From an uncultured marine group I thaumarchaeote (GTDB lineage: Archaea; Thermoproteota; Nitrososphaeria; Nitrososphaerales; Nitrosopumilaceae), in assembly GCA_902566725.1 (NCBI GenBank), contig CACFJZ010000004.1, forward strand, positions 1-46,825: a DNA stretch of 46,825 nt, written 5' to 3'. A program made the position numbers and the translations under genes. The notes below the pieces were generated by a model. That model was not told the DNA's origin, did not search any database, and worked only from the letters and a program-made list of their open reading frames with translations. Position 1 is the stretch's first letter; each line of letters opens with the position of its first letter. Below, piece by piece: positions 30,517-36,466 of the stretch.

Positions 30517-31890
30517 ATGGCACAAGCCAATCAACAACAATCTGTTTGGAAGGTAGATTCATCACCTGCGATCCAATCGTATACGCTTGCAAATCTCAGA
30601 AAACTACCACAATTGGAAAATTTTTCAGAAGAACAGATCTTTGAAATGGAGGTAGTTGGAAACGTTCTGCCATTCAAGGCAAACAACTACGTTGTTGAAC
30701 AACTAATTGACTGGGATAATGTCCCAGGCGATTCCATGTTTAATTTGACATTTCCCCAAAAAGGTATGCTAAAGCCAGAACATTACGATATGATGGCCTC
30801 TGTTTTGAAAAACAACCCGGATAGAAAAGAAATTCAAGAAACAGCAAACAAAATCAGATTACAATTAAACCCACATCCAGCTGGTCAAATGGAACTAAAC
30901 GTTCCAGTTCTAAAAGATGGAACCAAGCTTTATGGAATGCAACACAAATACAAAGAAACCTGCCTTTTCTTCCCTAGTCAAGGTCAAACCTGTCATGCAT
31001 ATTGCAGTTTTTGTTTTAGATGGCCACAGTTTGTTGGAATGGACGAAATGAAATTTGCAATGAAGGAAGGTGACGATTTAGCCCAATATGTAAAAGAACA
31101 TCCAGAAATTTCAGATATACTGTTTACTGGTGGAGATCCAATGATTATGAAGGCAAGTCTGTTTTCTGCATATATCGATAAACTGTTAGACGCAGATTTA
31201 CCAAATCTCAAAACAATTAGAATTGGAACAAAGGCATTATCCTACTGGCCATACAAATTCACATCTGACGGTGATTCTGAAGAAACCCTTGAGACATTTA
31301 GACGAATCACCTCAAAAGGAATTCATGTGGCATTAATGGGTCACTTTAACCATCTTGCAGAACTAAAAACCGATGCCGTAAAACTTGCAATCAAAAAGGT
31401 TCGTGAAACTGGAACACAAATCAGAACTCAATCTCCATTGCTTACTAACATTAACGATGATGCTGATATGTGGGCACAGATGTGGCAAAAACAGGTAGAA
31501 CTTGGGTGTATACCATACTACATGTTTGTTGTTAGAGATACAGGTGCACAACACTACTTTGGTGTACCTTTAGTCAAAGCACATCAAATCTTCCAAAAGG
31601 CAATTCAAAAAGTCAGTGGACTTGGGAGAACTGTTAGAGGACCATCAATGTCTGCAACACCTGGCAAGGTACAGATTGATGGAGTTGCTGAAGTAAATGG
31701 AACCAAAGTTATGGTTTTCAGAATGTTACAGGGAAGAAACCCAGAGTGGGTTAATCGTCCATTCTTTGCAAAATATGATGAAAACGCAATTTGGCTTGAT
31801 GATCTTAAGCCTGCCTTTGAGGACAAGTTCTTCTTTGAAGATGAACTAGACCAAATCAAAGAGCAAAAGATGAAAACTATGACAAGTTAA
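30517..31890 (+). CDS. Radical SAM protein, lysine 2,3-aminomutase (KamA) family
   Basis: TCHAYCSFCFRWPQF (Cx3Cx2C), ISDILFTGGDPMIM, GTQIRTQSPLLTNINDD. Confidence 0.85.
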   Translation: MAQANQQQSVWKVDSSPAIQSYTLANLRKLPQLENFSEEQIFEMEVVGNVLPFKANNYVVEQLIDWDNVPGDSMFNLTFPQKGMLKPEHYDMMASVLKNNPDRKEIQETANKIRLQLNPHPAGQMELNVPVLKDGTKLYGMQHKYKETCLFFPSQGQTCHAYCSFCFRWPQFVGMDEMKFAMKEGDDLAQYVKEHPEISDILFTGGDPMIMKASLFSAYIDKLLDADLPNLKTIRIGTKALSYWPYKFTSDGDSEETLETFRRITSKGIHVALMGHFNHLAELKTDAVKLAIKKVRETGTQIRTQSPLLTNINDDADMWAQMWQKQVELGCIPYYMFVVRDTGAQHYFGVPLVKAHQIFQKAIQKVSGLGRTVRGPSMSATPGKVQIDGVAEVNGTKVMVFRMLQGRNPEWVNRPFFAKYDENAIWLDDLKPAFEDKFFFEDELDQIKEQKMKTMTS

Positions 31891-35039: not shown

Positions 35040-35067
35040 ATATGTCTTAAATATGATAAAGACATAT
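35040..35067. promoter_or_regulatory. Perfect 9-bp inverted repeat flanking TATA-like sequence
   Basis: ATATGTCTT-AAATATGATA-AAGACATAT; (T)TAAATATG about 26 bp upstream of the ncRNA candidate's 5' end. Confidence 0.6.
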
Positions 35068-35075
35068 AGAATTTA

Positions 35076-35200
35076 ATGCGGAAGGATGTAAATCCTATCG
35101 ACTAAACTTGCGTGGTCCTGCAGAGCAGAAATAGAGTCAACAGCACAATTGTGCCGACAAGTGAGGGAATCTCACATTGCTTTGCCGAAGGGCCACGCCC
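35076..35200 (+). ncRNA. Candidate structured non-coding RNA of unrecognised class
   Basis: GCGTGGTCC(35110-35118)/GGGCCACGC(35190-35198); GCAGAGC(35120-35126)/GCTTTGC(35179-35185); hairpins GCAC-AATT-GTGC(35143-35154), GTGAG-GGAAT-CTCAC(35161-35175), GGAT-GTAA-ATCC(35084-35095); no ORF in the supplied track; locally GC-rich. Confidence 0.65.
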
Positions 35201-35213
35201 CCATTAATTCAGC

Positions 35214-35684
35214 CTAGATACTTCTGTCCAATTTTTCTATGCTTATGCTGACTGAACCATTCAAATTTCCCTCACGATTGATAACAATCTCATAATTGTC
35301 TCTTTCTGAAACTGTGAAAAATTTCTCTCCAATATACTCCCAAGTATAATATTTTGAAATTCCAGTATCAACCAAACTTTTCTCCAAATAGAATTCTTGT
35401 TCAAAAATTTGATATCCATCTTCACTCATTATTCTCAAATTCAGTAGCTCTGGAGAATCTCCCATTGGGACAAACCCAATTTCATAGGTACCTTTTCCTA
35501 AAATTCCAACCTCACTTCCTATAGTTGGTAAATCTTGAAATTCCGGTCCAGATATTCGAATATCCCAAATCCCGGAATTGAGACTTTCTTCCTCTGCGCC
35601 TGGATTTGCAATAGCCCCATATGCTATTGAAACGGCAACTGCAGCAGCTGCTATTCCTACCACAATTGCTGATTTTTTGGCCAT
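35214..35684 (-). CDS. Hypothetical secreted or membrane-anchored protein
   Basis: 156 aa; N-terminal hydrophobic signal/anchor AIVVGIAAAAVAVSIAYGAIA. Confidence 0.55.
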   Translation of the reverse strand: MAKKSAIVVGIAAAAVAVSIAYGAIANPGAEEESLNSGIWDIRISGPEFQDLPTIGSEVGILGKGTYEIGFVPMGDSPELLNLRIMSEDGYQIFEQEFYLEKSLVDTGISKYYTWEYIGEKFFTVSERDNYEIVINREGNLNGSVSISIEKLDRSI

Positions 35685-35803: not shown

Positions 35804-36466
35804 ATGGCAAGTTTCCAAGACAAATGGTCAGCTCCACAAAAGCAAGGATTCATGGATAAACTCGGTGATACCTTCAAACCAAAAGGCTCACTAAAACCAA
35901 GAGTCGAACAGGCTGTAAAACGATTACAGGCTCAAATCGGAAAACTAGATGCCATGACACAAAAACTCCAAGAAAGAGACCAGAAAATTTTCCAAAAAAT
36001 TGTCGCTGCTCAACAAGCACACGACACCTATTCCAGTAAAGTATTATCAAACGAACTAGTTGAGGTTCGCAAAGTTAACAAAATCTTATCCAACGCCAAA
36101 ATGGGCTTGGAGAGAATTGAATTAAGATTAACCACCTTCCACGACTTGGGCGATACAGTTGTCACCTTAATGCCAACAATCGGTCTAATGAACGGACTCA
36201 AATCATCACTTGTTAAATTCATGCCAGGTGCAGACCAAGAGATTGGTAGAATGACTGAGATGTTAGGTGGATTAATGACTGAAACCTTCAGCAGCAGTGA
36301 ATCATCATCATTCGGAGTTTCAGAAGCAACCAACGCTGAATCTGACAGCATCCTAGCAGAAGCAGCAGCAGTCGCAGAATCACAATCAGGACAACAATTC
36401 CCATCCGTTCCATCAAGCGGATTGGAGCAATTTAACGTACCAACTTCTGAATCAAAATTTATGTAA
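35804..36466 (+). CDS. cdvB: ESCRT-III-like cell division protein, CdvB paralog
   Basis: Snf7-like helical region (SLKPRVEQAVKRLQAQIGKLDAMTQKLQERDQKIFQKIVAAQQAHDTYSSKVLSNELVEVRKVNKIL) and TFHDLGDTVVTLMPTI. Start MASFQDK at 35804 rather than 35753. Confidence 0.85.
   Translation: MASFQDKWSAPQKQGFMDKLGDTFKPKGSLKPRVEQAVKRLQAQIGKLDAMTQKLQERDQKIFQKIVAAQQAHDTYSSKVLSNELVEVRKVNKILSNAKMGLERIELRLTTFHDLGDTVVTLMPTIGLMNGLKSSLVKFMPGADQEIGRMTEMLGGLMTETFSSSESSSFGVSEATNAESDSILAEAAAVAESQSGQQFPSVPSSGLEQFNVPTSESKFM

Follow-up and report, generated by a model that had tools for sequence, protein, structure and literature searches.

Dual-function small RNAs (sRNAs) are represented in bacteria by SgrS/SgrT and RNAIII. 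Spot 42/SpfP is named as another in PMC11456600, and in the archaea sRNA154 of Methanosarcina mazei has been proposed to belong to this class (PMC11456600). The locus considered here lies within 46,825 nt of DNA from an uncultured marine group I thaumarchaeote of the Nitrosopumilaceae, which is called the window below. The Nitrosopumilaceae, a family of ammonia oxidizers, are among the most abundant marine archaea, and to our knowledge RNA regulation in the family is almost wholly uncharted. A preliminary description of the locus proposed a novel structured non-coding RNA. The RNA is indeed novel and structured, but "non-coding" is probably wrong or incomplete, since homologues carry an ORF of 8-10 codons. 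Comparison of the homologues makes it rather likely that the locus encodes a two-module, translated RNA, in which a leaderless mini-mRNA is joined to a structured domain with a three-way junction.

The structured domain lies in a block with a GC content of 52% in AT-rich surroundings, free of any ORF of at least 60 aa. The two stems originally drawn by eye, of 9 bp (35110-35118/35190-35198) and 7 bp (35120-35126/35179-35185), are borne out and are lengthened by the pairs 35119-35189 and 35127-35178, respectively. The resulting P1 and P2 form an 18-bp helix closing a three-way junction with the hairpins Pa and Pb, the two inner hairpins of the preliminary description (Table 1). The argument for the plus strand, based on the wobble pairs U35116-G35192 and G35123-U35182, was likewise correct. 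The plus strand has a folding energy of -48.9 kcal/mol, the mean for shuffled sequences being -31.9 (z -4.48, equalled by none of 200 shuffles), whereas the minus strand reaches a z of -1.65. The 3' end of the RNA is probably just downstream of the 3' strand of P1 (35198).

Table 1. Features of the RNA locus, in window coordinates
Feature	Position	Strand	Basis or remark
TTAAATA, TATA-box-like element	35047..35053	+	29 nt before ATG
Mini-ORF, ATG CGG AAG GAT GTA AAT CCT ATC GAC TAA (MRKDVNPID-stop)	35076..35105	+	also a hairpin
Spacer, mini-ORF stop codon to P1	35106..35109	+	4 nt in the window; 3-5 nt in 115/119 copies
P1 5' strand, GCGUGGUCCU	35110..35119	+	fold and covariation
P2 5' strand, GCAGAGCA	35120..35127	+	fold, fitted and unfitted alignments
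Pa, variable hairpin	35136..35158	+	pairs 35136-35138/35156-35158 and 35143-35146/35151-35154; fold
Pb, conserved hairpin GUGAG-GGAAU-CUCAC	35161..35175	+	paired in 100% of cells, 92 sequences
P2 3' strand, UGCUUUGC	35178..35185	+	fold and covariation
3'-side bulge CGA between P2 and P1	35186..35188	+	longer in many relatives
P1 3' strand, AGGGCCACGC	35189..35198	+	fold and covariation

Relatives of the region were found initially by DNA search and then with a covariance model, R1. In the model-fitted alignments, changes on both sides occur at 27 of the 33 pairs, with 266 double-change cells versus 65 in shuffles, and the signal collapses in a control in which the partners are slid by 1-3 columns. 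A MAFFT alignment that was not fitted to structure also reveals compensatory changes, at 14 of the 23 pairs that RNAalifold predicts. Compensatory change is strong in fitted and unfitted alignments alike. Across 92 sequences, the three outermost pairs of P1 (G-C, C-G, G-C) are practically fixed, and most other P1 positions covary. Pa varies in length and sequence, with covariation at all three modelled positions. Pb takes the form GAGAG-GNNNU-CUCUC in most relatives, with an exchange of U-A and A-U observed and pairing retained in every sequence (n=92). Because the fold is kept through compensatory changes in homologues, it is not a product of chance, and the structured RNA family is almost certainly real.

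No family in Rfam 15 credibly matches this RNA. A scan of the window returned a single RNA, a tRNA-Pro located elsewhere in it; the region itself gave two chance-level matches (E 0.22 and 2.6), far under their gathering scores, and a scan of three relatives gave none at E<0.5. The first reading had recognized no RNase P, SRP, tRNA or guide RNA signature. Archaeal RNase P RNA (RF00373) is unmatched here and has true matches elsewhere in five of the six genomes searched, and the window's own genome has a true SRP RNA match (RF01857) at G000:C23; these RNAs are likewise structured and nearly universal, but they reside at other loci. ARAGORN detects no tRNA or tmRNA. The window RNA lacks both the C box RUGAUGA and the D box CUGA of C/D guides, and the C box occurs in none of 119 copies. 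H/ACA guides combine a hairpin that has a pseudouridylation pocket with a K-turn and a 3' ACA box; the region has no Rfam match to such a family, and the placing of an ACA box would depend on the 3' end of the RNA. Neither Rfam 15 nor the open papers searched contain an account of the RNA, and it is on this ground assigned to a new family. A novel structured RNA is supported by the lack of a credible Rfam match together with strong covariation, a conserved upstream promoter and a near-universal occurrence in the Nitrosopumilaceae.

With model R1 the RNA is recovered from 228 of the 251 Nitrosopumilaceae genomes, from 128 of the 132 good-quality genomes and from 18 of 22 genera. There are often two copies per genome, and some genomes have three to five. 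This presence of a small RNA in nearly all members of the family, often in duplicate, makes a central role likely. The window's genus includes a complete genome of 1.23 Mb (G025), and deep members of the family were recovered as well (L175 and L176). Named records with matches are mostly Nitrosopumilus, Nitrosarchaeum, other Nitrosopumilales and thaumarchaeal or marine group I sequences, and the labels also include Nitrososphaeraceae (two) and Nitrosomonas (one). Outside the Nitrosopumilaceae no matching genome was found at class level, a broader model (R2) run with permissive filters gave no credible match beyond the family, and the core motif was present in none of the virus contigs. Three candidates were rejected as copies: L177, which has no start codon and folds poorly; L178, which by eye resembles the coding sequence of an ATPase subunit; and L016, a promoter-like chance match. 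Two further copies, L205 and L214, lack the usual ATG and would start at TTG or GTG with eight codons; they are possibly decaying paralogues.

Judged from its surroundings, the RNA gene is a stand-alone one. At the main locus the RNA is preceded by a gene on the other strand and followed by a convergent gene whose end lies 0-12 nt away (in the window, 12 nt past the covariance-model match). A second paralogue group occupies a separate locus, where a different set of neighbours (clusters 9 and 10) is conserved, and further copies are found elsewhere. The nearness of the convergent gene, along with a T-rich stretch that follows P1 in many relatives, would suit a bidirectional transcription terminator or a repeat element placed between the ends of convergent genes. 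Such an element is nevertheless very improbable, given that the RNA has its own promoter, an ORF and a complex three-way junction, that its G-U pairs are strand-specific, and that its paralogues sit among different neighbours. Attenuators typically pair a leader ORF with an adjacent structured element, an arrangement that is also seen here, and a cis-regulatory leader (a riboswitch, or an attenuator with a leader peptide) could be proposed on that basis. In most copies, however, the downstream gene is convergent, and the strand of the RNA itself has no gene that is consistently next; this rules against a riboswitch or attenuator, to which we give almost no credence.

Several neighbouring genes deserve mention in their own right. 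The convergent neighbour in the window (35214-35684, minus strand) encodes a predicted exported protein of 156 aa that is syntenic in other genera and has no Pfam or NCBIfam match; across many genera its gene keeps its 3' end about 0-12 nt from that of the RNA. Close by, 35804-36466 (plus strand) encodes a CdvB1/B2-like (ESCRT-III) cell-division protein with conserved synteny, which scores 144.7 bits against a curated NCBIfam cut-off of 350 and so falls below it. A reading of the sequences places a transcription factor B gene often just past the convergent neighbour (L048, L051, L055, L110, L137, L157 and others), an adjacency limited to some genera. Farther away, the product of 30517-31890 (plus strand) resembles by eye a radical SAM protein of the lysine 2,3-aminomutase type.

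The 30 nt at the 5' side of the RNA (35076-35105) were overlooked in the preliminary description, and they contain both a nine-codon ORF and a hairpin. The TTAAATA element is present at -29 in nearly all of the homologues listed, including divergent paralogues at other loci. Combined with archaeal TATA-box geometry, this spacing puts the start of transcription at the ATG or 1-3 nt before it, and we infer a leaderless start and transcription from the RNA's own TATA box. Among 119 distinct copies, which are related by descent so that the ORF counts are not independent events, 117 have exactly nine codons and two have eight; the start is ATG, with one GTG, and the ORF closes at the near-constant distance from P1 given in Table 1. 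A held-out test set of 40 divergent copies behaves similarly. It gives 33 ORFs of nine codons, four of eight and two of ten, plus one copy whose sole start, by sequence reading, is TTG, so that 39 of 40 have an ORF of 8-10 codons versus 2% at control sites. Extension of the ORF beyond its stop was also considered: in the window the frame stays open through the rest of the RNA, and by sequence reading it is closed in relatives, so the extension is not conserved. Since the homologues all keep a putatively leaderless ORF of 8-10 codons before the structured domain, the transcript looks partly translated, and from these comparisons the mini-ORF is very likely translated.

A structured sRNA of the ordinary untranslated type, or a scaffold for protein binding, in which the 5' AUG, the hairpin and the UAA would be structural motifs resembling an ORF, draws support from the leader hairpin itself, which forms in nearly every copy (mean z -2.5) with different sequences in different groups, and from the absence of a synonymous bias. 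Part of the length conservation of the leader could likewise stem from RNA structure, as the leader is also a hairpin. The behaviour of the stop codon argues the other way. All three stops are used interchangeably (TAA 74, TAG 39 and TGA 6 among the 119 copies), and in L186 and L187, where the usual stop is altered, the codon following it in frame provides a stop directly before P1. Length changes within the ORF occur by whole codons and keep the frame, whereas single-base indels fall in the spacer after the stop. Moreover, the 62 distinct ORFs are all free of stops in frame, whereas the other two frames contain them in 53 and 23 of the 62. On balance, an untranslated sRNA is unlikely.

The peptide shows none of this constancy. 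The 119 copies encode 59 different peptides, and the number exceeds 70 when the held-out copies are added; those of the paralogue groups (MPKDIIPID, MSLVIKSGD, MMSITISAD, MQKDVKSTA, MLVQCRMMD) are little alike. ORFs that differ by a single base include 15 nonsynonymous and no synonymous neighbours, where 25% synonymous would be expected, and without synonymous changes there is no classical protein-coding signature. A classical small protein with a conserved peptide was accordingly left unsupported. The lack of synonymous changes may be due to the leader hairpin, and the test therefore opposes conservation of the peptide without giving an exact measure of it. If the nonapeptide were the active product of a small mRNA or of a dual-function RNA, the structured domain being a stabilizing 3' UTR or a second function, this would account for the conserved reading frame and for a final residue that is usually D or E (46/60). 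Given the diversity of the peptides and the makeup of the one-base neighbours, such an RNA is a decidedly unlikely candidate. As far as sequence comparison can tell, it is the frame, the length and termination before P1 that are conserved, and not the peptide. Such a pattern is better explained by selection for a ribosome to pass along the ORF than by selection acting on a peptide or on AUG and UAA as structural motifs. With ORF length preserved and the peptide not, engagement of the ribosome is suggested as the way in which the RNA works.

How a two-module, translated RNA might act can be outlined. Transcription from the RNA's own TATA box would be leaderless, with the nine-codon ORF taking up the initial 30 nt. 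A ribosome would initiate at the 5'-terminal AUG, melt the leader hairpin and read nine codons, and termination would leave the ribosome's entry site pressed on or into P1. A ribosome with a stop codon in its A site covers about ten further nucleotides downstream, and for this reason termination here would have to press on P1 or open it. Occupancy by one ribosome may then gate, time or anchor the 3' domain, which would be the acting part, the peptide being a by-product. In the most economical model, the presence of a ribosome would compete, or be coordinated, with complete folding of the 3' domain, and the RNA would report on, or attach to, translating ribosomes. Ribosome-gated or ribosome-anchored action, to which the spacing points, is put forward tentatively. 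Equally conjectural is the proposal that translating about nine codons, and not the peptide, is the function, with the leaderless start capturing one ribosome and the position of the stop switching or docking the structured domain. If true, this would make it a trans-acting RNA that senses translation, maintained at one to several copies per genome across an archaeal family of global abundance. Conservation of ORF length without that of the peptide raises the question of whether ribosome engagement is itself the signal. More generally, archaeal "non-coding" RNAs may hold leaderless mini-ORFs far under annotation length limits.

The RNA is a new family, and dual-function archaeal sRNAs as such have already been proposed. 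Of the properties expected of a dual-function sRNA, a structured domain under selection is indicated by covariation and a small, putatively translated ORF on the predicted transcript by its conserved frame and length in sequence comparison, whereas the one-base neighbours give no support to a peptide with a conserved function of its own. Tan1, an abundant 229-nt ncRNA of marine group II Euryarchaeota, is also a lineage-specific structured RNA of marine archaea; it is set apart by its description, coming from another phylum and having another length, and the portion of PMC5069720 drawn on here reports no ORF for it. The ribosome-associated sRNAs of Haloferax volcanii are similarly archaeal, and action on or together with the ribosome has been proposed for them, but most are without coding evidence, in contrast to the ORF of near-constant length conserved throughout the present family (PMC12482152). 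The bacterial dual-function sRNAs share the combination of a short ORF and a structured small RNA on one transcript; they use a Shine-Dalgarno sequence, whereas the start here is putatively leaderless, the ORF is shorter and the peptide is not conserved. M. mazei sRNA154, a regulatory archaeal sRNA, also carries a small ORF close to its 5' end; that ORF is leaderless, as the present one putatively is, and was detected by Ribo-seq, yet it has 20 aa and a highly conserved peptide, compared with nine codons and a variable peptide here (PMC11456600). The two also belong to different lineages, and the ORF of the Nitrosopumilaceae RNA is held at a fixed distance from its structured domain.
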